The notes under the pieces: model-generated
Databases searched by the model: none
Told to the model about the DNA's origin: nothing
What the model saw: the letters and a program-made list of their open reading frames with translations, nothing else
Shown: piece by piece, positions 44,428 to 58,356 of the stretch
How the letters are laid out: every line of letters starts with the position of its first letter
Position numbering within the stretch: position 1 is the first letter of the stretch
Position numbers and translations under genes: made by a program
NCBI RefSeq assembly: GCF_021298855.1
Contig: NZ_JAJTHI010000009.1
Span: 1 to 61,073, forward strand
Direction of reading: 5' to 3'
DNA from: Gemmatimonas sp.
GTDB taxonomy: Bacteria; Gemmatimonadota; Gemmatimonadetes; Gemmatimonadales; Gemmatimonadaceae
DNA: 61,073 nucleotides

Positions 44428-44771
44428 GCGGGGGGTGGGGGACGGGGTGTTGGGGGGACGGAGTGAACGGCAGCGACCTCCAGCAGACGGCAGACGGCAG
44501 GAACGACAGTGCGCAAACCGGAGGGATTCGGAAGAACGGGCGCGCCGCAATGCGGCCGCGCCCGATCTCCTTTGCGGTAAGGAAATCGGCGGCGGCGCGC
44601 AGCGCCGACCGCCGCTTTCCTTTTTCCTGCCGTCTGCTCACTGTCGTTCCTCCCGTCTGCCGTCTGTCGTTCCGCATCGTACGCCGCCCCACCGATCGCG
44701 CCGCGCCCGCCGCGCCCCTCGCGCCGTTCGCCCCGTTTGCGCCCCCCTCTCACGCGGTGCACTTTCCCCCC
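44428..44771. repeat. Gene-free region with a long inverted repeat and nested hairpins
   Basis: No gene is evident in these 344 bases. The outer arms, 44484-44511 and 44639-44666, are inverted copies of 28 bases with one mismatch, built from the repeated word cagacgg. Inside lie a gggcgcg/cgcgccc hairpin (44538-44563), a small gatctcctt/aaggaaatc stem, and a terminator (44581-44625). The whole 183 bases look like a miniature element with inverted ends, but I see no target duplication. Confidence 0.7.
44581..44625 (+). terminator. Intrinsic terminator of the sugar transporter operon
   Basis: A GC-rich stem of about 17 bp (44581-44598 with 44602-44620, two small mismatches) with a tight loop, followed by TTTCCTTTTT. 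It lies 153 bases past the ATPase stop. Confidence 0.75.
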
Positions 44772-45812
44772 ATGCGCACTCCTGCCCTCTTCGCCGCGCT
44801 CGCGGCCACGCCCTTCGTGCTCTCGGCGCAGTCGTCGCCCACGATGCCCCCCGTCAACGACAAACCCAATCCCTACGCCACGGTGGAAGGATGGGCAAAG
44901 CTCCCCGATGGCCGAACATGGGGCTCCACCAGTGCGGTGGCCATCGACAAGGACGGCAAGCACATCTGGGTGGCCGAACGCTGCAGCGTGAACAACTGCG
45001 CCGGCTCCACGCTCGCCCCGATCCTCAAGTTCGATCCGCAAGGCACACTCGTCGCGTCCTTCGGCAGTGGCATGATCCTGTCGCCGCACGGCATCCACGT
45101 GGATCGCGACGGCAACATCTGGGTGGTGGACTGCGCCTGTACACTGGGCGCCGCGCAAGTGCCGGCGGGCAAGGGGCACCAGATCCACAAGTTCAGCCCA
45201 ACCGGCTCCTACCTCATGTCGCTTGGCAAGCCGGGCGGCGGCCGCGACACGGCGTTCTTCTGGCAGCCCAACGCGATCGTGACCGCGTCGAACGGCGACA
45301 TCTATGTGGCCGAAGGGCACTCCTCGCGCGCCGGCGCGAATGCGCGCGTGCTCGTGTTCGACAAGAACGGCGGACTCAAGAAAACCTGGGGCACCTGGGG
45401 GAAGGGCGAGGGGCAGCTCGATCAGCCGCATGCCCTCGCCTTCGACAGCAAGGGGCGCCTCTTCATTGGCGACCGCGGCAACGACCGCATTCTCATCGTG
45501 GACAAGGACTTCAAGATCCTCGACACGTGGTATCAGTTCAGCCGTCCGAGCGGCATCTGGATCGACAAGAACGACATGATCTACGTGGCCGATTCGGAGA
45601 GTGGCTCCGTGAACCCGCCACACGTGGCGTGGACCCGCGGCATTCGCATTGGCAGCGCGAAGACGGGGGAAGTGACGGCATTCATTCCCGACCCCGCCGT
45701 GAATCCGCCCAGCACCTCGAGTGCGGAAGGCGTGGCCGTGGATGCGGCGGGCAATATCTACGGCGCCGAAGTGGGGCAGAAGGCGCTGAAGCGGTACGAA
45801 AAGAAGAAGTAG
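44772..45812 (+). CDS. Exported NHL-repeat beta-propeller protein
   Basis: Secreted protein of 346 residues, signal peptide ending LSAQS. At least five NHL blades are visible (for example SPHGIHVDRDGNIWVVD, QPHALAFDSKGRLFIGDRGN and AEGVAVDAAGNIYGAE), the layout of a six-bladed propeller. Cys pairs in ERCSVNNC and VVDCAC suggest disulfides. Relatives include the amidating-lyase domain and SMP30-like lactonases, but catalytic residues cannot be assigned. A second such protein is encoded at 50.1 kb, with the quinoprotein genes between them. Confidence 0.85.
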   Translation: MRTPALFAALAATPFVLSAQSSPTMPPVNDKPNPYATVEGWAKLPDGRTWGSTSAVAIDKDGKHIWVAERCSVNNCAGSTLAPILKFDPQGTLVASFGSGMILSPHGIHVDRDGNIWVVDCACTLGAAQVPAGKGHQIHKFSPTGSYLMSLGKPGGGRDTAFFWQPNAIVTASNGDIYVAEGHSSRAGANARVLVFDKNGGLKKTWGTWGKGEGQLDQPHALAFDSKGRLFIGDRGNDRILIVDKDFKILDTWYQFSRPSGIWIDKNDMIYVADSESGSVNPPHVAWTRGIRIGSAKTGEVTAFIPDPAVNPPSTSSAEGVAVDAAGNIYGAEVGQKALKRYEKKK

Positions 45813-45821
45813 CGCAGCGTC

Positions 45822-45904
45822 ACCCGCCACCCGAAACTCGAAACTCCCCGCGGCTCACGAGATTCTCGTTGGCCGCGGGGAGTTTCGGGTTTCGGGTGGC
45901 GGGT
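45822..45904. terminator. Long hairpin between convergent genes
   Basis: Arms 45822-45853 and 45873-45904 are inverted copies of 32 bases with one mismatch, around a 19-base loop that itself pairs (acgag/ctcgt). Each arm holds two near-copies of a gaaact word. It fills the gap between the stops at 45812 and 45937 and is probably a bidirectional terminator, though without a T-run. Confidence 0.75.
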
Positions 45905-45936
45905 CGCGGGTGGTGCGTGCGCTCAGACCTGCGCCA

Positions 45937-48141
45937 TCACTTCGGCAACTTCATCGCCACCAGGCTCGTGTTCTCTTCCGCGCCGGTGGCGAAGACGATG
46001 TACTGCTGGCCCTTGTGCAGGAACGTCATGGGCACGGCGGTCGTCTTGGCGGGAATCTGCACCGTGGCCACGGTCTTGCCGGTGGCCTTGTCCAGCGCGA
46101 ACAGCTTGGGCGGCTCGCCCGGCAGTCCGCCGCTACGCCCCGTGCCGTAAATCACGAGGGTCTTGGTGGTAATGGCCTGCGCCTGGCCACGACCGGGCAG
46201 CGGCGGCAGCGTGACGCCCGCGAAAAGCGGATCGCGGCTCGTCTGCTTGATGAAGCCCGCATTGGGCGCCCACCAGCTCTTGTCGCCCGTACGCAGATCG
46301 TAGGCGGTGATGCCACCATACTCCTTGGGCTTGGCGATGGAAATGCCGCCAATCATGGAGCCGGAGGCGCGGCCGGCAAAGCCCACGTTTTCCGGCTTCT
46401 TGTAGCCTTCCGGCGTGGGCAGCGCACCAAGCAAGCCACAGTTGCTGGCGGGTGAGCTGTAGGCGAACTCGCTGCACGGATCGTTGAGCAACGACGCCGT
46501 GCTGAGCCCCGTAATGCTGGCCACGAAGATCTTCCCCGTCTCCGGGTCGATGGTGGCCCCGCCATCGATGTTCACGCCACCGCTGGCACCCGGCGCATAC
46601 CACGCGCACCGATAGCCGCTGGCGTCCTTGCCATCGGCCGCGGCGGGCGGAATGTAGTACGGCCCCATGCGGCACTTCTTGGCCAGGGCCAGCGCGCTGT
46701 CGCGAATGGCCGGCGTGTAGTCGATGAGGTCGGCCTCCACGAGCCCCTGCTGCGAATACGGCGCCGGCTTGGTGGGAATGGGCTGCGTGGCCGCCGATTC
46801 CTCACCCGGCACACCGCTCTTGAGCACCGGCGTTTCCGGCATGGGCCAGATGGGCTGTCCGGTGAGGCGATCGAAGACGTACAGCCACCCCTGTTTGGTG
46901 GGCTGCGCCACGATCTTGCGCGGCTTGCCATCGATGGTCACGTCCATGAGGTTGGGCGCCATGGGCGTGTCGTAGTCCCAGATGTCGTGGTGCACCATCT
47001 GGAAGTGCCACTTGCGCTTGCCCGTCTTCACGTCGAGCGCCACCAGCGAGTTGCCAAACAGATTGTCGCCGGGGCGATGGCCGCCGTATTCGTCCATGAG
47101 CGGCATACCCACGGGGATATACACGAGCCCCAGCGCTTCGTCGGCGGCATACGGCGCCCACGCATCGGTCTTGCCCACGCCCTTGGTACCCTGCTTGGAG
47201 CCGTTCTTCCAGGTGTCGGCGCCAAATTCCCCCGGCTGCGGCACGAGGTTGAACTTCCACAGCAGCTTGCCCGTGGGAATGTCAAAGGCGCGAATGGTGC
47301 CGATGGGGTTCGACGCGCGAATGGGGTAGTAGCCGTGAATGGAGGAGTTGCCCACGATCAGCACGTTCCCGACCACCATGGGCGGCGAGCTCGCGGCGAT
47401 CTGGCTGAGAATACCCACCGTGCCGTCGGCGCCGATCTTCTTGACCGGATCCCACCCTTCACCCGGCTTGGCTTCGCGATACGGGGCGGCATCGGAGATG
47501 ATGAGCGGGCCGCTGTCGTCCACGGCCAGCTTCTTCATGGGATAGCCCAGCCCCTCCATGAGGTCGACGGTGCCTTGCTTGCCGAAGAGCGGGTCCGGCT
47601 TGCCGGTCTTCGCGTCGAGCGACACGAGGTGATACCCCGGCGTGGTCACCAGCACGCGCTCCTTGCCCGCCTGATTCCAGTAGGCGAGGCCGCGCCCGGC
47701 AAACTGCCGCGGCGCCTTCTGCCAGCGGATCCCCTCTTCCACCCGGTACGCCCACAGCTCCTTGCCGGTCTCGGGATCCAGCGCGACCACGTGCCGCTTG
47801 GTGGAGGTCACGGTGAACAGGCGCCCGTTCGCGTACAGCGGCGTGGTGCGGTAGTACTCGTCGGGCCCGTGCTTTTCGCCCCCCTTCCACTCCCACGAGA
47901 CCTGCAGGGAGCCGAAGTTGTCGGCGTTGATCTGGTCGAGCGGCGAATAGCGCGTGCTCCACTGGTCGGCACCCCAATGGCGCCATTCACCAAAGGCGTT
48001 GCCGCGCACCAGCCCCCCGGCGGCGGCCGGCTTGGCTGCGGCCTGCGCGAGCAGATCGCGGCCGGTTCCACCCAGGGCCACGACGGCCCCGAGGACAAGG
48101 GAGGTGACGGTCGTTCTGGGGAGGGGACCGCGTCGGGTCAT
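45937..48141 (-). CDS. PQQ-dependent dehydrogenase (quinoprotein)
   Basis: Exported quinoprotein of 734 residues with signal peptide (about 1-33). The eight-bladed PQQ propeller is evident from repeats such as VVALDPETGKELWAYRV, IRAFDIPTGKLLWKFN and LVALDVKTGKRKWHFQM, and a start WRHWGADQWSTRYSPLDQIN. It resembles the glucose/membrane-type dehydrogenases more than methanol dehydrogenase, but has no N-terminal membrane helices and no own haem. Substrate unknown. It begins four bases inside the end of the HupE-cytochrome gene, so the cytochrome domain is a likely electron acceptor. Confidence 0.9.
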   Translation of the reverse strand: MTRRGPLPRTTVTSLVLGAVVALGGTGRDLLAQAAAKPAAAGGLVRGNAFGEWRHWGADQWSTRYSPLDQINADNFGSLQVSWEWKGGEKHGPDEYYRTTPLYANGRLFTVTSTKRHVVALDPETGKELWAYRVEEGIRWQKAPRQFAGRGLAYWNQAGKERVLVTTPGYHLVSLDAKTGKPDPLFGKQGTVDLMEGLGYPMKKLAVDDSGPLIISDAAPYREAKPGEGWDPVKKIGADGTVGILSQIAASSPPMVVGNVLIVGNSSIHGYYPIRASNPIGTIRAFDIPTGKLLWKFNLVPQPGEFGADTWKNGSKQGTKGVGKTDAWAPYAADEALGLVYIPVGMPLMDEYGGHRPGDNLFGNSLVALDVKTGKRKWHFQMVHHDIWDYDTPMAPNLMDVTIDGKPRKIVAQPTKQGWLYVFDRLTGQPIWPMPETPVLKSGVPGEESAATQPIPTKPAPYSQQGLVEADLIDYTPAIRDSALALAKKCRMGPYYIPPAAADGKDASGYRCAWYAPGASGGVNIDGGATIDPETGKIFVASITGLSTASLLNDPCSEFAYSSPASNCGLLGALPTPEGYKKPENVGFAGRASGSMIGGISIAKPKEYGGITAYDLRTGDKSWWAPNAGFIKQTSRDPLFAGVTLPPLPGRGQAQAITTKTLVIYGTGRSGGLPGEPPKLFALDKATGKTVATVQIPAKTTAVPMTFLHKGQQYIVFATGAEENTSLVAMKLPK

Positions 48142-50060
48142 GGGTTCTCCGTACGTGCGCGAGGGCGGGAAACGAGCGAATACAGCGGTAACGAGGGCGT
48201 GCGGGACAGCGGAGCAACCTGTTTTGGCGAACCGACGGCGCGCAGGGTGGAGTCGACCTTGACCGCCTTGAGCCACGCCGGCTCGGGATTGAGTTCCGTG
48301 CGACCGGCGGGCATCCCGTTGAGGCGGAGGATGTACGCCGTGACCCACACGTACTCGTCTTCCGTGAGACTGCCCGGTGCGGCCTTGGGCATGGCCTGAC
48401 TCACGTAGTCGTACAAGTCGAACAGCGGGCGCCCGAACCATTTGTTCTGGAAGGCCGGGCCCATGTGTGTCGCCGTGGTGTGGCACCCCAGGCAATTGCT
48501 CGTGAACACCTCACGGCCCTTGGTGGCCTGCTCGGCGGTGTACACCCCGGCCATGGTCGTGCGCGGCTGCGCCTCGGCGCGCACGGGCACGAGCCACGCC
48601 ACCGCCGCGAGCAGCAGCACCGCGACCACGCCACTCCGGGCACCGGGCGCTCCGCCCGAAACAAGCGGACGTCGCTGCAGGCGCGCCATGAGCCCCTGGA
48701 CCGCCCACAGGGCTCCCACGAGCACGAGCAGCGCCATGAGCGCGCGTACGATCAACACGGCGAGGGAGACGTCGAACACGGGCATGGTGAGGGGATACGA
48801 GTCCAGCACGGCATAGCGTTCCTGCGTCCAGTGCCACGCCTCGTGCGCCACAAACGCACTGGCCACGACGATCGCGGCGCGCTCCGGAACGCGGGTGAGG
48901 AGGCGGTCGAGCACGGGAACGGCAACGAGCAGCACCGCCACCTGGGCGACCTCCACCCCCACGTTGAACGCGAGGAGCGAGGTGAGCAGGTGCGGACCGG
49001 CAAACTGCAGGCTGTCGCGCAGCGCCGACGAGAAGCCGAAGCCGTGCACGAGCCCGAAGACGAACGCCAGCACCCAGCGACGCTCGAGTTGCGGACGCAG
49101 CAGATTCCCCACGGCCATGAGCACGATGGACGCCGCGATCACGACTTCCACGAATGGCGGAAACCACGCCACGTCGGGGGCGAAGCCCAGGGCCGACGCC
49201 ACGAGCGTAAGGGAATGCGCGACCGTGAACGCCGAGACGATACCAATGAGCGGCCGCAGCTGCCGGAAGGGGAGGACCAGGCAGAGCAGGAACAGGAGAT
49301 GATCGTAGCCGAGCAGCAGGTGATGGACGCCTTCCCGCGTGAACATCCACGCGGCGTGCCACCAGCGCGGGTCTACCCGCACCTCGCCGGGATTGCCATC
49401 GAAGGCGTAGCGGCGTTCGGTGCCATCGGCGTTCACCAGCGTGAGCACCGTGGTGGTGCGCACCCCCAGGTTGGCCCACGCCGGCTCGATCACCAGATCG
49501 CGCACGGGCGACCCGACCGGCACTTCCAGCAGCACTTCCAGGCGCAGCTGTCCATGGGGCACGTTGATCGAGTCGGCGAGCGGGTGCGAGGTGACCGCGT
49601 TGAGGGCGGACGCGTACTGCTCGAAGGCGCGATCAGAGGGAAGCGCGGCGCGTACCGCGAGCAGCTGCGGCGCCGGCAGCCGCCGCCCGCCATCGCGCAG
49701 GGTGATGGCATCGGCCACCCACAGCTGCGCCGCGTCGCGCAGGAACGGCTGCGCCCGTGACAGCTCGAGCGCTTCGTTGGCGCGCAGCGGGAAGTCCACA
49801 TCGCGCACGGCATCCATGGGAATCTGCACCAGCAGGCGCACACGATCGGCCAGCGGCGCGATCCAGGCGCGCACGCCAACATGCCGTGGAATCTCGTGGG
49901 CCAAGGCCACGCGACCGGGCAGCGCGACAGCCACCACGATGGCGATCACCGACAGGAAGCGAGCGAAGCGCAACGTGTCTCTGGACAGGGAGGAACAGGC
50001 GGGTAGGTTGGACGAAGTTACCACCCGGATGCGCGTTGCACACGGGGCCGGGCCCGCCAC
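48138..50060 (-). CDS. HupE/UreJ membrane protein fused to cytochrome c
   Basis: Fusion of about 640 residues. A signal segment (about 31-55) leads a beta-rich extracytoplasmic domain (56-230). The HupE/UreJ_2 membrane domain follows (235-455) with its motifs GVHHLLLGYDHLLFLLC, FTVAHSLTL and FGLVHGFGFSS. After another helix (477-494) comes a cytochrome c domain with haem site C523-LG-C526-H527 and probable axial M557. HupE relatives are linked to nickel or cobalamin-type import, but here the cytochrome and the overlapping quinoprotein gene suggest electron transfer. Start uncertain: GTG at 50060, or a later GTG/TTG. Confidence 0.88.
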   Translation of the reverse strand: MAGPAPCATRIRVVTSSNLPACSSLSRDTLRFARFLSVIAIVVAVALPGRVALAHEIPRHVGVRAWIAPLADRVRLLVQIPMDAVRDVDFPLRANEALELSRAQPFLRDAAQLWVADAITLRDGGRRLPAPQLLAVRAALPSDRAFEQYASALNAVTSHPLADSINVPHGQLRLEVLLEVPVGSPVRDLVIEPAWANLGVRTTTVLTLVNADGTERRYAFDGNPGEVRVDPRWWHAAWMFTREGVHHLLLGYDHLLFLLCLVLPFRQLRPLIGIVSAFTVAHSLTLVASALGFAPDVAWFPPFVEVVIAASIVLMAVGNLLRPQLERRWVLAFVFGLVHGFGFSSALRDSLQFAGPHLLTSLLAFNVGVEVAQVAVLLVAVPVLDRLLTRVPERAAIVVASAFVAHEAWHWTQERYAVLDSYPLTMPVFDVSLAVLIVRALMALLVLVGALWAVQGLMARLQRRPLVSGGAPGARSGVVAVLLLAAVAWLVPVRAEAQPRTTMAGVYTAEQATKGREVFTSNCLGCHTTATHMGPAFQNKWFGRPLFDLYDYVSQAMPKAAPGSLTEDEYVWVTAYILRLNGMPAGRTELNPEPAWLKAVKVDSTLRAVGSPKQVAPLSRTPSLPLYSLVSRPRARTENP

Positions 50061-50115: not shown

Positions 50116-51297
50116 ATGCCGAGGTTTGTTCCCCCTCCCCGCTGGTCGATGCTGGCGCTCGCTCTGGCCGGCCTTGGCGCTGCCCAGGCCGTCCTGCAGG
50201 CCGACAGCCGTCAGACGGTGCAGGCGCCGCGGTTCGAAGTCGATCCGCTGTGGCCGCGGCCACTCCCCAACCACTGGATCCTCGGGTCCGTCATCGGGGT
50301 CGGCGTGGATAGCCGCGACCACGTCTTCATCATCCATCGGGGTGATTCCACGCTCAATCAGCGCACGGAGGCGGGGGCCAATGCCACGCCGCCCATTGGT
50401 GAGTGCTGCCGGTCGGCGCCGCCCGTGCTCGAGTTCGACCCGGACGGTAACCTCGTGAAGGCGTGGGGTGGTCCGGGCGCCGGCTACGACTGGCCGTCGT
50501 CCAACCACGGCGTGGCCATCGACGACAAGGACAACGTGTGGATCGGCGGCAACGGCGCCATGGATTCGCAGATCCTCAAGTTCTCGCACGACGGCAAGTT
50601 CCTAGCGCAGTACGGCGCCCCCAAGCAGGCCGCCAACAGCAATGATACGTCGCACTTCGGGCGGGTGGCCAAGATCACCTTCGATGCGAAGGCTGGTGAG
50701 GCGTACGTGGCCGATGGCTACGGCAACAAGCGCGTGGCCGTGATCGACGCGACCAGCGGGCGGATCAAGCGCTACTGGGGGGCCTACGGCAACAAGCCCG
50801 ACGACGCGCGATTGCCGCCCTACGACCCGTCGGCGCCGCTGGTGCAGCAGTTCCGCAACCCGGTGCACTGCGCCGAGCCCACCAATGACGGGCTCGTGTA
50901 TGTGTGCGACCGCCCCAACGATCGCATCCAGGTGTTCCAGAAGGACGGCAAGTTCGTGAAGGAAGTGCGCGTGGCCAAGGAAACGCGGGGCGACGGCTCG
51001 GTGTGGGACATCGCGTTCTCGCGCGACCCGCAGCAGAAGTATCTCTACCTGGCCGACGGCAAGAACGAGCGGGTGTACGTGATGGACCGGCAATCGCTCG
51101 AGATTCTCACCTGGTTTGGCGACGGCGGTCGCCAGCCGGGCCAGTTCTTCGCCGTCCACAGCATTGCCACCGACTCGAAGGGCAACGTGTACACCACGGA
51201 GACCTACGAGGGGAAGCGCGTCCAGAAGTTCCGCTACAAGGGCATTGGCGCGGTGCCGCGCGGCAGCCAGGGCGTGGTGTGGCCCACGGGTCGCTGA
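50116..51297 (+). CDS. NHL-repeat six-bladed beta-propeller protein
   Basis: Protein of 393 residues with an N-terminal hydrophobic segment (12-27) acting as signal or anchor. NHL blades are clear: SSNHGVAIDDKDNVWIGGNG, GEAYVADGYGNKRVAVID, DGLVYVCDRPNDRIQVF and FFAVHSIATDSKGNVYTTE. The pattern matches peptidyl-alpha-hydroxyglycine lyase-like propellers. The ATG at 50116 has GGAG eight bases upstream. It points away from the HupE-cytochrome gene over a 55-base gap, so they may share a regulatory region. Confidence 0.88.
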   Translation: MPRFVPPPRWSMLALALAGLGAAQAVLQADSRQTVQAPRFEVDPLWPRPLPNHWILGSVIGVGVDSRDHVFIIHRGDSTLNQRTEAGANATPPIGECCRSAPPVLEFDPDGNLVKAWGGPGAGYDWPSSNHGVAIDDKDNVWIGGNGAMDSQILKFSHDGKFLAQYGAPKQAANSNDTSHFGRVAKITFDAKAGEAYVADGYGNKRVAVIDATSGRIKRYWGAYGNKPDDARLPPYDPSAPLVQQFRNPVHCAEPTNDGLVYVCDRPNDRIQVFQKDGKFVKEVRVAKETRGDGSVWDIAFSRDPQQKYLYLADGKNERVYVMDRQSLEILTWFGDGGRQPGQFFAVHSIATDSKGNVYTTETYEGKRVQKFRYKGIGAVPRGSQGVVWPTGR

Positions 51298-52300: not shown

Positions 52301-54325
52301 TCAGCAGCTGCGGCACTTGTTGCTGTTCTTCGATCCCAGCTTGACCAGCAGCTCCACCGTTTCCAGGAAGGGCGGGATGCGCTGCACCGGACCATTGGCC
52401 ATGTCGGCCGTGGTCTGCCCGCGGCGGCTCATCGCCTTCACGTCGGTGCCCTTGCTCATGAGATACTGAATGAGCGCGTTGTCCCCGCGCGCCGCGGCAT
52501 GATGCAGCGGGTTGTACCCGTTGTGATCACGCGCGTTGGGATCGGCCTTGAGCTCTTCCAGCAGGTACTTCACGGCCGGCATCCACGCGTCGGGCGCGTG
52601 GCGATGCGAGTTGGCGGCGTAGCCCTCGCCGTACCCCACGCCGGACGCCGCGTGAATGGGATACACGCCCGGCCCGCCATCGGGCACGGGCGGCAAACCG
52701 GAAGGGTCGGTGCCACCAGCCGCGCCTTCTTCCGGCGCGTCATCGCCTGGCAGGCGACCGAGCGGCTTGATGGTGGGAATGGTGGGATCGGCCTTGTACT
52801 GCACCAGCAGCTTCATGGCCGGCACATCCAGCCCGTACGCCGCCCGCCAGAAGGGGGTGGCCCCCACCGTGTTCACGCCCAGCAGGTCGAAGTTGTACGA
52901 CATGAACCAGAGGTGCTTCTTGAGGCGCACGTTGGGATCGGCGCCGGCCTTGAGCATCTGCTCCATGAGCTCGAGGTGCGTGACCTGCTGCTGCAGCTGC
53001 GCGGTGGGCTGCGGGTAGAGCGACTTGGGCGCCCACTGCGTGTTGATCACGGCGTACAGCGGCGTGGCGCCGGCATCGCTGGCCAGCTTCACATCGGCGC
53101 CCCGGTCCAGCAGCATCTTGGCCAGATCGAAGCGCCCATTGATGGCCGCCATGAGCAGCGGCGACGAGTGATCGCCCTCGCTGACGTGGTTGAGGTTGGC
53201 CCCGGCGTCGAGCAACCGGCGCACCGCCTCCACATGGCCTTCGCGCACGGCAAAGAGCAGCGGCGTGAGGCCGCCCTTGTTGCCAATGAGCTCCCCGTAT
53301 GAGGGACCGCGCTGCTGGAACCCGGTGGCGGGTCGTGCCGAATCGCCGGAGGCGCGCGGTGCAGGACGTGCGCCCGACGCGGCAGCGGCCGATGCGGCAG
53401 GCGCCGGTGCGGCAGGCGCCGGTGCGGCCGGTGCCGGTGCAGCCGGTGCCGGTGCAGCCGGTGCCGGTGCAGCCGGTGCCACCGCCACCGGTACGGGGGC
53501 CGCCGCACTCGCCGTGACCGGACCGGATCCCACCGGAAAGTTGGGGGTCACGGTGCTGGGCGCCAACGGCGAGTCGGCCGACTTGAGGGCGGCCACCCGG
53601 CGGGTGCGCGCAATGAGCTGCGTGCGGATTTCCCGCTCCTGCTTGGGAATATCCTCGATCTTCGACGCCGCCTCGAGACCGGCGCCCGCCTTGATGAGCA
53701 CGTCGATGGCCGACACGCGACCATACGCGGCCGCCCACATGAGCGGCGTCTGGCCCCAGGCCGTCTCGCGCACATCCACCGGCACCTTCTTGTCCATCAG
53801 GGCCCGCACACTTTCCGCATCGCCATGGCCGGCGGCGAAGTGCAGCGCCGTTGCCCCACCGGTGCTGGTCACGGCCAGGGGATCGGCCCCGCTGGCCAGC
53901 AGCAGCTTCACCACCGCCGCGCGCCCTTCGCGCGCCGCGATGTGCAACGGCGTGTAGTTGCCGTTACGCGTGAGCGCATCGACCCGCGCGCCCGCATACA
54001 CCAGCACCTGTGCCGACGACAGATCACCGCGCTGCGCCGCCCAGTGCAACGGGGACATGCCGTCGGGCTGCGCCGCGTTCACATCCACCCCCTGCTTGAG
54101 CAGGGCGCGAACGCGCGCCGTGTCGCCACGCATCACGGCGTCGGCGAGCGGTGCTTCCGCCGGATTGCGCACGCCATGGGCGGTGTAGTCACCACGTGCC
54201 CCGTCAGACGGACGGGCCGCCGACAGCAGCGCCACCGCCGCACAGGCGCCGCACACCGCCGCGGCACGCATGACGCCCGGCAGCCGGCGTCGAGCCCCCT
54301 GCGTGAGGTCAGGCATTGGCAGCAT
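52301..54325 (-). CDS. Exported ankyrin-repeat protein
   Basis: Protein of about 674 residues with a weak signal peptide (residues 17-40). Ankyrin repeats run at about 55-210 (DGMSPLHWAAQRGD, NYTPLHIAAREGR, GATALHFAAGHGD, QTPLMWAAAYGR) and again after 330 (LTPLLFAVREGH, YNPLHHAAARGD). Between them lies a low-complexity Ala/Pro stretch of near-perfect AAPAP units encoded by a 15-bp tandem repeat. Its start overlaps the 3' end of the DUF1552 gene. The last residues KCRSC are a Cys pair. Confidence 0.88.
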   Translation of the reverse strand: MLPMPDLTQGARRRLPGVMRAAAVCGACAAVALLSAARPSDGARGDYTAHGVRNPAEAPLADAVMRGDTARVRALLKQGVDVNAAQPDGMSPLHWAAQRGDLSSAQVLVYAGARVDALTRNGNYTPLHIAAREGRAAVVKLLLASGADPLAVTSTGGATALHFAAGHGDAESVRALMDKKVPVDVRETAWGQTPLMWAAAYGRVSAIDVLIKAGAGLEAASKIEDIPKQEREIRTQLIARTRRVAALKSADSPLAPSTVTPNFPVGSGPVTASAAAPVPVAVAPAAPAPAAPAPAAPAPAAPAPAAPAPAASAAAASGARPAPRASGDSARPATGFQQRGPSYGELIGNKGGLTPLLFAVREGHVEAVRRLLDAGANLNHVSEGDHSSPLLMAAINGRFDLAKMLLDRGADVKLASDAGATPLYAVINTQWAPKSLYPQPTAQLQQQVTHLELMEQMLKAGADPNVRLKKHLWFMSYNFDLLGVNTVGATPFWRAAYGLDVPAMKLLVQYKADPTIPTIKPLGRLPGDDAPEEGAAGGTDPSGLPPVPDGGPGVYPIHAASGVGYGEGYAANSHRHAPDAWMPAVKYLLEELKADPNARDHNGYNPLHHAAARGDNALIQYLMSKGTDVKAMSRRGQTTADMANGPVQRIPPFLETVELLVKLGSKNSNKCRSC
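53394..53480. repeat. 15-bp tandem repeat inside the ankyrin gene
   Basis: Five to six copies of a unit close to gccggtgcagccggt, coding the AAPAP linker on the minus strand. Copy number is likely to vary by slippage without breaking the frame. Confidence 0.75.
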
Positions 54326-55700
54326 TCAGGTTGAGGATGCCGGTGCTGTCGCCGAACGCCGTCATGTCGTCGAGTCCCAGCGTGTGCATCATGCTCAGCA
54401 TGGCGTTCGCCATGGGCGTCCCGTCGGGCGCCTTGATGTGCAGATTGCCGGCCAGGCGATTCTCCGCCTTGCCCAACACGATGAGCGGGCAACGGCGATG
54501 ATTGTGCAGGTTCGAGTCGCCCATGGGCGATCCGTAAATGATCATCGTCTTGTCCAGCATGTTGCTCTCGCCTTCCTGAATGCTCTTGAGCTTGTCCAGG
54601 AAATAGGGGAGCATGGACACGTGGTACTTGTTGATCATGTTGAAGTCCTTCACGCCGCGCTCCGTGCCGCCATGGTGCGACGCCGGGTGGAACGGCTTGT
54701 CGGTACCGCTCTCCGGGTAGGTGCGGCTGGACCCGTCGCGTCCCATCTTGAACGAGAAGACGCGCGTGATGTCGGCCGCGAACGCCAGCGCCTGAATGTC
54801 GAACATGAGCTTCACATGTTCGGCGAAGGAGTCGGGCACGCCGGCCGGTGCTTCCGGCAGCTCACGCACCTCCCCGCTGGTGTTGCGCGCTTCCACACGC
54901 TGGATACGGCGCTCCACTTCGCGAATGTCGGTGAGGTAGCGATCGAGCCGCACCTTGTCCTCGGGCCCCAGCGCCGCCTTGAGCGACGACATCTCCCCCG
55001 ACACGAAGTCGAGGATGCTGCGGCGCGTGCGCCGGCGCTCGGCGCGCTCGGCGCTCGTACCTCCCACGCCGAAGAGCTTCTCGAAGGCAACGCGGGGATC
55101 GCGGATGACCGGGAGCGGCTCCGACGGCGAGGCCCAGCTGATGGAGTCGGTGTAGACGCAGGCATAGCCGTAGGCGCAGCCACCGGCCTGGTCGACATTC
55201 TCGATGCACAGCTGCATGGACGGAATGGGCGTGTCCTGCCCGAACCGCTGCGCGTACATCTGGTCGAGCGACGTCCCCACCTTCACATCCGAGCCTTCCG
55301 TCTGCTTGGGATGCATGTGCGTGAGGAACACCGCACTCGAACGGAAATGGTCGCCGCCGATTTCGTTGGGCGACGTGGGCTCGGCTTCGCGCGCGTCGGT
55401 GTTGCTGACGATCGTGAGATAGTCGCGGTACTGCTCCAGGGAAGAGAGTGCCGTGGGGGCGAGATCGTACTGCTTCCCCGTGGCCGCCGGCGACCACAAG
55501 TTCATCTTGGCGCCCCACTCGTTGCAGCCAGCCGCCCCGTGCACCATTTCGATGGCCACCAGGCGTGGTGCCTGCTTGGCACTGCCGAAGGCCCCGCGGC
55601 CCGTGGGAATCATGGCGTCGAGATACGGCAGGGCGATGGTGGCGCTCATCCCCTGCATGAACTGACGGCGCGGCATGGCCTTTCCGGTCAGGAAATACAT
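54309..55700 (-). CDS. DUF1552 family protein, Tat-exported
   Basis: Protein of 463 residues. The N terminus has a twin-arginine motif (MPRRQFMQGMSA), which points to export of a folded protein. The DUF1552 body shows APRLVAIEMVHGAAGCNEWG, FSFKMGRDGS, HHGGTERGVKDFN and TMIIYGSPMGDSNLHNH, related to the DUF1501/sulfatase-like alkaline phosphatase fold. DUF1552 genes regularly pair with the DUF1592 gene, as here 34 bases upstream. The biochemical role is unknown. Confidence 0.9.
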   Translation of the reverse strand: MYFLTGKAMPRRQFMQGMSATIALPYLDAMIPTGRGAFGSAKQAPRLVAIEMVHGAAGCNEWGAKMNLWSPAATGKQYDLAPTALSSLEQYRDYLTIVSNTDAREAEPTSPNEIGGDHFRSSAVFLTHMHPKQTEGSDVKVGTSLDQMYAQRFGQDTPIPSMQLCIENVDQAGGCAYGYACVYTDSISWASPSEPLPVIRDPRVAFEKLFGVGGTSAERAERRRTRRSILDFVSGEMSSLKAALGPEDKVRLDRYLTDIREVERRIQRVEARNTSGEVRELPEAPAGVPDSFAEHVKLMFDIQALAFAADITRVFSFKMGRDGSSRTYPESGTDKPFHPASHHGGTERGVKDFNMINKYHVSMLPYFLDKLKSIQEGESNMLDKTMIIYGSPMGDSNLHNHRRCPLIVLGKAENRLAGNLHIKAPDGTPMANAMLSMMHTLGLDDMTAFGDSTGILNLNAANA

Positions 55701-55734
55701 CGGTCGGTCTCCGGTCGTGTTGGTATCGAGGGGA

Positions 55735-58356
55735 TCAGCGCCCGCGGCCAGCGGCCGGGACTTTGCTGGCGGGTGTGACAGGTGCGGCGGGAGCAGTCGT
55801 GGTTGGTGCCGCCTTGACCGGCCCCTCCGCCACCACCTTCCGCAGGCGGAAGGCATCGCTCTTCACCACACCGAGGATGAAATCGTTGAGCTTGTAATTG
55901 TTCTTGCCGGCCGCCGCTTCGATGCGGCGCACCGTGGGCGCATCGTACCACTCGACGCGCCGCCCGAGCGCATACGCCATGAGGTTCTGCGTGAACGAGC
56001 GCATGAGCGGCACCGGTCGCTTCAGCAGCGCCTGCTGGAGCTCGGTGGGGTTGGTGATCCTGGTGCCATCGTAGTAGTCACCGCGGGTATCGAGTGCCGA
56101 CCCGTTCTCGCGAATGCGCCAGCGGCCCATCACGTCGAAGTTGTCGAGCGCCAGACCAATGGGATCGATGAACTGATGGCACGACTTGCAGGTCGCGTTC
56201 GCGCGATGAATTTCCATGCGCTCACGGGTGGTGAGCAGGCGCCCTTCCTGCGCCCCCTTGGTTTCTTCGAGGTCGGGCACGTTCGGCGGCGGCGGCGGCG
56301 GCGGGGAGCCCATGAGCACCTCCATCACCCACTTGCCGCGCAGCACCGGTGAGGTGCGATTGGCTACCGACGTGAGCGTGAGCACGCTCCCGTGCCCCAG
56401 GATGCCGCTGCGCGGCGAACCGGCCGGATACGTGACCCGACGGAAGTCGTTGCCGACGACCCCCGGAATGTCGTAGTGCCTGGCGAGCGATTCGTTGAGG
56501 TACGTGTAGTTGGCCGTGAACAGATCGAGCAGGCTGCGGTTCTCGCGCACGAGATGGTGGAAGAACAGCTCGGTCTCGCGCCGCATCTCCCTGGCCAGCT
56601 GCTCGCGGAAGTCGGGGAACTGGTTGGCATCGGGGTGCACGAGCTCGATGTCCTGCAACCGGAGCCACTGTGAGGCAAAGCGCGTGGCGAGCGCTTCGCT
56701 GCGCGGATCGGCCAGCAGGCGCCGCGCCTGCGCCACGAGCACCGTGGTGTCGGCGAGGCGACCGGAGCGCCCCAGCGCCACCAGCTGCGAGTCGGGGGGC
56801 GCGCCCCAGAGGAAGAACGAGAGACGTGACGCGAGGTCCACGCCGCTCACCGGCACGCGCCCCTTGGCCGCGGCCGGCACCTCTTCTATGCGGAAGATGA
56901 AGTGCGGGCTGGAGAGCATGGCCTCGAGCGCCGTGCGGATGCCGATCTCGAAGCCCCCGGCCTTCGCGCCTTCATCGTAGAAGGCCAGCAGCCCCTTGAG
57001 ATCATTGGCCTGCATGGGGCGACGGTACGCCTGCGCGCCCAACCGGGTCAGGATTTTCTCGGCGCAGGGACGCGCTTCGGTGGCCGACAACGGACGGCAG
57101 CTGAAAATGCGGCGGCGCGTTGGCGTGTCGGAGACCCCCGTGGGATTGTAGGGCCCCGTCACGGCAAAGTTCTGTATGTGCGCCTGCACGGTAATACCCG
57201 CCTGCGCCCCGATCTGCGTATCGGCGATGCTGTGCCCGAGCGGCGTGATGTTGTCATTCACCGGCCCTTCGAAGGTCCGCACGAAGGTGGCGGCGATACG
57301 CTGCGGGCCGGCCCGGATGGGGACCGGCTTGGTGCGGATCTCCATGCCCTGCGGATCGGCCTGCGACATGCCGCGATCGATATCAAGCAGCGCCACGCGC
57401 TCGCCGTTCACCGACACTTCGATCTTTTCGTCGAACGGCGCCGTGGACGCGAACAGCTGGCCGGTGGGAATGGCGTGCAGCGTAATGGTGAAGACGTACT
57501 CGCCGTCGGCGGGGAAGGTGTGCGTCACCGCCGCGCCGCCGCGCGTCCCGATCGGGGCACCCTCCACCTGATCCAGCTGCGACGCGAGTCGCGCAATCTT
57601 GAAGGTGCTGGTGGAGACGCTCGCCTTGGGGTCGCCCACGGCAAGGCGGGCAATCTCACTCGCCGCGTCGAGATAGGAGTCGAGCAGCGTGGCCGACGGC
57701 AGCTGCACGTCGGCGATGTTGTCGAAGTTCGCGCTCTTGGTGTCCAGCGGCAGCCACGAGTCGGCCCGGATGTCGAGCGAGAGCACGTCCTTCACGGCAC
57801 GCTCGTACTCGGCACGGTTGAGCCGCTGGAAGGTGCGGGTGCCCGGGTTCGGGTCGGCCGCGTAGCGCGCGTCCATCGTGCGCTCGATCGATTCCAGCAG
57901 GATCTGCAGCGTATCACCGCCCGGCTTCGCACGCCCCGGCGGCGGCATCATGCCGGTGCGCAGCTTGTTGATCATTTTCTCTGCCACTTCCGGGGCGGTC
58001 TGCCCAATGGTGGCCAGATCCAGATTCTGCAGCGACAGATTGCCCTGGCGGCGTTGATCGCTGTGGCACCCGGCGCAGGTCTTCTTGACGACCTCGCCCA
58101 ACGCCGCTGCCGTCATGGTGCGTGCCGCCGGCTTGAGTACCGGATGACCAACGCGGCGATTGGCGCGGGTCACGCTGCCCAGTACGGGATCGGCAGCACC
58201 ACTTACGAACGACAGATCGTAGGACGTGGCGGTCACGGGCGCCGAGCTGGCCACCTCACGAGACGCCCCCGACGGCGTCGTGCCCTCGGGTCGATCCACG
58301 GTGGTCAAGGCGAGCAGCGCCACGCATCCGGCACCAGCAGCTACCAACGACTTCAT
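55735..58356 (-). CDS. DUF1592-type cytochrome-like protein (PSD/PSCyt domains)
   Basis: Exported protein of 873 residues with the domain chain of planctomycete-type cytochrome proteins: a haem site C94-AG-C97-H98, DUF1587 (FQRLNRAEYERAVKDVL), DUF1595/DUF1592 in the middle, and DUF1588/DUF1585 at the end (RANATCKSCHQFIDPIGLALDNFD, with a second CxxCH). An inserted carbohydrate-binding-like beta region lies around 250-400. It may oxidise an external polymer with DUF1552, but no member is well characterised. First gene of a DUF1592-DUF1552-ankyrin operon. Confidence 0.9.
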   Translation of the reverse strand: MKSLVAAGAGCVALLALTTVDRPEGTTPSGASREVASSAPVTATSYDLSFVSGAADPVLGSVTRANRRVGHPVLKPAARTMTAAALGEVVKKTCAGCHSDQRRQGNLSLQNLDLATIGQTAPEVAEKMINKLRTGMMPPPGRAKPGGDTLQILLESIERTMDARYAADPNPGTRTFQRLNRAEYERAVKDVLSLDIRADSWLPLDTKSANFDNIADVQLPSATLLDSYLDAASEIARLAVGDPKASVSTSTFKIARLASQLDQVEGAPIGTRGGAAVTHTFPADGEYVFTITLHAIPTGQLFASTAPFDEKIEVSVNGERVALLDIDRGMSQADPQGMEIRTKPVPIRAGPQRIAATFVRTFEGPVNDNITPLGHSIADTQIGAQAGITVQAHIQNFAVTGPYNPTGVSDTPTRRRIFSCRPLSATEARPCAEKILTRLGAQAYRRPMQANDLKGLLAFYDEGAKAGGFEIGIRTALEAMLSSPHFIFRIEEVPAAAKGRVPVSGVDLASRLSFFLWGAPPDSQLVALGRSGRLADTTVLVAQARRLLADPRSEALATRFASQWLRLQDIELVHPDANQFPDFREQLAREMRRETELFFHHLVRENRSLLDLFTANYTYLNESLARHYDIPGVVGNDFRRVTYPAGSPRSGILGHGSVLTLTSVANRTSPVLRGKWVMEVLMGSPPPPPPPNVPDLEETKGAQEGRLLTTRERMEIHRANATCKSCHQFIDPIGLALDNFDVMGRWRIRENGSALDTRGDYYDGTRITNPTELQQALLKRPVPLMRSFTQNLMAYALGRRVEWYDAPTVRRIEAAAGKNNYKLNDFILGVVKSDAFRLRKVVAEGPVKAAPTTTAPAAPVTPASKVPAAGRGR

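Follow-up and report, generated by a model that had tools for sequence, protein, structure and literature searches.

Is a membrane permease that shares one open reading frame (ORF) with a cytochrome c a single working protein or the precursor of two? The question is raised by a stretch of 61,073 nucleotides from the genome of a Gemmatimonas sp., a genus of soil bacteria (contig NZ_JAJTHI010000009.1; the whole stretch is referred to as the window), in which a HupE/UreJ-2 permease gene (hupE) is fused to the coding sequence of a class I cytochrome c, directly ahead of a gene for a pyrroloquinoline quinone (PQQ)-type dehydrogenase. A first-pass annotation of the sequence had suggested one protein joining the dehydrogenase to an event at the membrane. 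The locus is probably better explained by the repeated fusion of two adjacent genes into a polyprotein precursor that would yield two products, a metal permease and a cytochrome serving as soluble acceptor. The features are collected in Table 1.

The fusion gene runs from 50060 to 48138 on the reverse strand as 640 codons, open and without a frameshift. Its product starts with a signal peptide and a periplasmic domain, continues as a HupE/UreJ-2 permease of seven helices and ends in a class I cytochrome c. Pfam matches were obtained for HupE_UreJ_2 (PF13795; residues 240-385, E 3e-41) and for Cytochrome_CBB3 (PF13442; residues 511-577, E 1.6e-10). The heme site CLGCH is found at residues 523-527, and C523, C526, H527, M557 and P558 are present in 58/58 relatives, which bears out the annotation in placing HupE/UreJ and a heme site with a Met ligand in one chain. 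The stop codon (48140-48138) overlaps the ATG of the dehydrogenase gene (48141-48139) as ATGA, with GGAGA immediately 5' of this ATG, so the overlap with a PQQ-dehydrogenase gene (PF01011) was also correctly described. An AlphaFold2 model built from 63 window and relative sequences (mean predicted local distance difference test, pLDDT, 84.8) gave an N-terminal helix at 25-46, a beta-rich domain at 58-230, seven transmembrane (TM) helices at 233-463, a short and weakly predicted helix at 475-489 and a cytochrome fold at 509-600, the latter SoxD-like (2xts_B, Z 8.6). The annotated GTG start is uncertain. A normal signal peptide would result from a TTG start at codon 30 (49973), with an alternative GTG further upstream, and this choice is uncertain as well; His55 (position 49898) is probably the first residue of the mature protein.

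A frameshift or assembly error, named in the annotation as what could undo the fusion, was rejected as its source, as the frame is open in 27 loci, complete genomes among them. Since the fusion is open in other species too, including the single-contig genomes G039, G019 and G073, it is not an assembly error. The N-terminal 460 residues were searched in 395 Gemmatimonadota genomes (E <= 0.001), and relatives were found in 272 of them, some matching only through the cytochrome or through a distant HupE similarity. Gene order was then read in 101 Gemmatimonadota loci with flanks, taking neighbor genes from a codon-biased caller, since in DNA of such high GC content shadow ORFs overwhelmed the clustering of raw ORFs. 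The raw script tally was 25 fused and 33 split loci; L102 and L119 were moved to the fused class, as the cytochrome match merely overran the stop. The final count is 27 fused loci (22 in the genus of the window, plus genomes G040, G089, G056, G315 and G202), 31 split loci, with hupE, a separate cytochrome gene and the dehydrogenase gene in order on one strand, and 43 loci where hupE has neither cytochrome nor dehydrogenase adjoining. The dehydrogenase gene is next in all split loci and in every fused locus whose contig extends far enough, and the proposed link of the fusion to a quinoprotein thus holds wherever the contig continues.

About four changes between fusion and split are needed to explain the fused state on the HupE tree, and a single clade of fused rows was rejected (p-AU 0.003, from quick trees with two long rows). 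The simplest account is fusion by loss of the stop between neighbors, several times, the direction not being proven by the tree. Beyond these genomes, a back-translated pattern search of GTDB contigs returned only three close relatives. Among plasmid records, the sole sample outside the phylum, Azospirillaceae HupE/UreJ relatives were found, none covering 80% of the query; therefore, none was seen with a cytochrome.

The junction itself is informative. All 27 fusions have a basic stretch and a hydrophobic core followed by Ala-Gln with a suitable -3 residue, off in position by one or two residues in a few. By chance, the Ala-Gln motif occurs in 38% of shuffled linkers and 5 times in 6168 aa of the TM1-7 region; since the pair was itself chosen in aligning the junctions, the telling number is the motif being rightly placed in each of the 27. 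Within the genus, identity is 23% in the hydrophobic core, 63% in TM1-7 and 72% in the cytochrome core, and synonymous codons vary at the site (GCG, GCT, GCC and GCA for Ala; CAG and CAA for Gln). In split loci, the cytochrome carries an ordinary signal peptide of its own, and in the fusion this former signal peptide would have become the internal segment. With seven TM helices before it in the model, the segment is predicted to be oriented as a signal peptide, with the cytochrome in the periplasm. Heme attachment to c-type cytochromes takes place in the periplasm. The chain would thus start with a periplasmic N-domain, pass through seven helices ending in the cytoplasm and be returned to the periplasm by the segment for heme attachment. 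Judged from the retained site, signal peptidase I most likely cuts between A497 and Q498 and releases the cytochrome, so that one gene would provide two proteins in equal amounts.

If the chain were left uncut, the segment would be an eighth TM helix tethering the cytochrome as an anchored acceptor, with HupE acting chiefly as its anchor or else working as a permease in its own right. Length, hydrophobicity and direction of the segment all suit a TM helix, and many quinoprotein acceptors are membrane-bound. This arrangement is nevertheless unlikely, although it deserves more weight than the other alternatives considered below: the Ala-Gln site is present in 27/27 fusions despite divergence of the hydrophobic core, split relatives have an ordinary signal-peptide cytochrome beside the same dehydrogenase, and a mere anchor role leaves the conserved metal residues of HupE unexplained. 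A separate cytochrome could also arise from an internal translation start within the fused gene. In the window, there is a GTG after GGAG at the segment and an ATG 39 codons ahead of the cleavage site, but no internal start is listed for several of the 27 fusions, and neither position nor codon is conserved, which makes this origin very improbable.

The partners of each half were traced in loci where they are separated. Eight genomes have a close dehydrogenase (63-72% identity) at a distance from hupE, and in 7/8 the cytochrome gene is beside it, upstream of the dehydrogenase gene (G155, G101, G015, G030, G354, G257 and G317). It was not detected in G029, and in none of these 8 genomes was it found with hupE alone. 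The constant neighbor of hupE is instead a divergent secreted NHL-repeat propeller gene (NHLup), found upstream in about 94/101 loci, with contig ends accounting for some of the exceptions. Across the phylum, its median identity is 70%, and an orthologue (41% identity, 421 aa) is the gene directly upstream of hupE on two Azospirillaceae plasmids. NHLup has invariant C97-C98, C252 and C264 and near-invariant H131, H251 and H348; the three His may form a central metal site like that of PAL. In G030 (L152:6755-9999), three NHL propeller genes lie in a row beside the cytochrome and dehydrogenase pair with no adjacent hupE. Since the cytochrome stays with the dehydrogenase and hupE with the NHL propeller, the fusion links two modules at their borders, NHL propeller-hupE and cytochrome-dehydrogenase. 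Together with the signal peptidase site in 27/27 fusions, this speaks against the single joining protein of the annotation.

The periplasmic domain of the first module was compared with known structures. PDB 9GCE, the copper-bound Ang-1 domain of a HupE/UreJ-2 protein, was top-ranked by Foldseek and VIA-align (E 9.8e-4; Z 10.7 over 136 residues, root-mean-square deviation 3.1, at 58-230), with zinc-binding ZrgA close behind as next among soluble domains. His55 is kept in 100/100 aligned rows, in most of them as the first residue behind the predicted signal peptide and in a few preceded by an insert. In the permease, H247, D253, H254, H282, E305, H339, E370, H406 and H410 are invariant or near-invariant, and the spacing of H247/H254/H282 is exactly that of the HupE site His194/201/229 predicted in PMC12537917, the paper on 9GCE. 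Matches of the HupE helices to MFS halves and ferroportin (Z about 8) were discarded as not meaningful for helical bundles. From the fold match, His55 and this His spacing, the N-terminal and permease part is, at the level of sequence and model, a member of the Ang-HupE/UreJ-2 kind. The Ang-1/Ang-2 anglerases (Franco Cairo et al. 2025, PMC12537917), in which a HupE/UreJ-2 permease is fused to a periplasmic domain whose mature N-terminus is His, share with it the signal peptide, this N-terminal His and an Ig-like beta-sandwich followed by a PF13795 permease with equally spaced conserved intramembrane His. They come from Pseudomonadota and Actinomycetota, whereas the fusion protein is from Gemmatimonadota, has an Ang domain about 10% identical to 9GCE, carries an extra C-terminal cytochrome c and is surrounded by genes for an NHL propeller, a cytochrome and a quinoprotein. 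The annotation knew of no described protein with this arrangement; none was found for the whole, while the Ang-HupE/UreJ-2 part had been described. The fusion protein also shares with HupE/UreJ nickel/cobalt permeases, such as Rhizobium leguminosarum HupE, the H-x5-D-H motif and membership of a secondary metal permease family, but it belongs to the PF13795 subfamily with an N-terminal Ang domain. No urease or hydrogenase genes were seen beside the fusion gene in the window. In the genome of the window (C18), a second, shorter HupE/UreJ-2 paralogue (L164:5681-6514; open frame of 277 codons) lies directly 3' of an apparent heavy-metal RND efflux pump gene.

RbAng-1a binds Cu(II) with a Kd of 74 nM, and a Kd of 220 nM is given for Ni(II) with domains of this kind (PMC12537917). 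By analogy, the metal captured by the permease would most likely be copper, possibly nickel or another. The Ang-HupE/UreJ-2 permease would take the transition metal via its mature N-terminal His and move it into or across the inner membrane, with the divergent secreted NHL propeller as its constant partner. A copper-binding fold, repeated fusion and the cytochrome and dehydrogenase genes beside hupE in 58 loci might also suggest an uncut importer, in which electrons from the dehydrogenase would pass through the tethered cytochrome and reduce Cu(II) at the Ang His to Cu(I), which HupE would import. However, 43/101 loci have hupE with neither of these genes adjoining, the cytochrome gene goes with the dehydrogenase and not with hupE where the two part, and the cleavage site is kept. 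A single chain that couples electrons to uptake is thus the least economical of the readings, and it is improbable.

The second module is led by the dehydrogenase, which scored 524.9 bits against PF01011 (Pfam cut-off 26.7) and is 28% identical to Escherichia coli Gcd. Of the PQQ-contact residues of Gcd, W404, D466 and K493 correspond to W328, D389 and K416, invariant in 49/49 sequences, while D354, N607 and D730 are not kept, D354 and N607 being replaced. The protein fell under the NCBIfam cut-off for every subfamily; for the membrane glucose/quinate dehydrogenases (TIGR03074), the score was 330.8 bits against a cut-off of 832.65, and no TM domain is present. Quinohemoprotein alcohol dehydrogenases (1kv9, 1kb0) and Gcd share with this system a PQQ propeller and a class I cytochrome c as acceptor, a role that is predicted here. 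Unlike Gcd, the dehydrogenase has no membrane anchor, and unlike PQQ dehydrogenases with a fused cytochrome, the cytochrome is fused here to the neighboring permease. On a Deinococcus plasmid (NZ_CP092187.1:16945-17340), a PQQ-binding-like propeller protein has a cytochrome domain 37% identical to that of the fusion, joined to the quinoprotein itself. In the Gemmatimonas system, the secreted dehydrogenase would hand electrons to the soluble class I cytochrome c and then to the respiratory chain.

PqqC was present in 38/298 Gemmatimonadota genomes and was not found in any fused or split genome matched within this sample. The contrast (Fisher p 0.002) is confounded by phylogeny and uses an inferred denominator of about 44 fused or split genomes. 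A PqqE search of the organism's own genome does not discriminate, as all 14 controls match as well. The outer-membrane PQQ importer PqqU is widespread in Gemmatimonadetes, and of all bacteria that carry PqqU only 23% produce PQQ themselves (PMC12124388), so it is plausible that the dehydrogenase uses scavenged PQQ, for which HupE would not be needed. Import by HupE of PQQ, or of a metal for PQQ loading, would agree with the missing PqqC. It is highly doubtful, given that PQQ scavenging is attributed to PqqU, that the dehydrogenase has a signal peptide and is predicted to be periplasmic, so that inner-membrane import would carry PQQ away from it, and that hupE is common without any such dehydrogenase. 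The PQQ uptake considered in the annotation is accordingly unlikely.

Several points weigh against a cleaved precursor with a metal permease and a PQQ-linked acceptor. The internal segment is modeled with a pLDDT of only about 46-65. The AxA/Q motif could persist by descent without cleavage, and signal-peptide cores drift fast anyway; about four independent fusions weaken this objection, yet leave it standing. The assignment of the metal would be drawn from a relative with about 10% identity in the Ang domain. With no PqqC seen, the dehydrogenase may use scavenged PQQ or hold no PQQ.

Table 1. Features of the fusion gene and its neighbors (positions in the window).
Feature	Positions	Strand	Remarks
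N-terminal signal peptide	49899..49973	-	Residues ~30-54; model helix 25-46; predicted cut between LRFARFLSVIAIVVAVALPGRVALA and HEIP; invariant His55 directly after
Ang (anglerase-type) periplasmic domain	49371..49898	-	Residues 55-230, mature N-terminus His55; AlphaFold2 model, structure match 9GCE
HupE/UreJ-2 permease, 7 TM helices	48672..49364	-	Residues 233-463; PF13795 core 48906-49343
Internal signal-peptide-like segment	48570..48638	-	Residues 475-497; predicted signal peptidase I site A497/Q498
Class I cytochrome c domain	48261..48569	-	Residues 498-600; CLGCH 48494-48480; Met557 ligand 48392-48390
PQQ-type dehydrogenase, 734 aa, secreted	45937..48141	-	PF01011, E 4e-157
NHLup, divergent secreted NHL-repeat beta-propeller	50116..51297	+	Constant hupE neighbor
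NHLdn, second NHL-repeat propeller	44463..45812	+	NHL repeats; convergent with the PQQ dehydrogenase gene

As for the surroundings, many loci of both the fused and the split class have NHLdn downstream. A strong hairpin of about 85 bases (45818-45908), lying where the NHLdn and dehydrogenase genes converge, is probably a bidirectional terminator. Rfam miRNA matches, this hairpin included, were dismissed as chance hairpins far under gathering scores, and no cobalamin riboswitch or other credible Rfam match was found near the genes. Upstream, consecutive reverse-strand genes at 52301-58356, kept in the genus, encode an ankyrin-repeat protein, a DUF1552 protein and a DUF1592/1588/1585/1595/1587 protein with a cytochrome c-like part.

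The locus extends the Ang-HupE/UreJ-2 metal-capture permeases to Gemmatimonadota and gives them a constant, uncharacterized partner, an NHL propeller in which three His and a vicinal Cys pair are conserved. With its relatives, it provides a natural series that runs from fused through split to separated genes. It further cautions that a gene fusion need not mean a functional fusion where the join is a former signal peptide. FbcH of Bradyrhizobium japonicum is reportedly a precursor of cytochromes b and c1 cut at an internal signal peptide, as Thony-Meyer et al. are said to have described in 1991. It shares with the fusion a polytopic membrane protein, an internal signal peptide and a c-type cytochrome in one ORF; it differs in its membrane protein and pathway, and both of its products stay in one complex. 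Cleavage is proven for FbcH and is proposed here for the Gemmatimonas fusion. If true, repeated fusion with a kept signal peptidase site would represent a further, independent precursor of the FbcH type.

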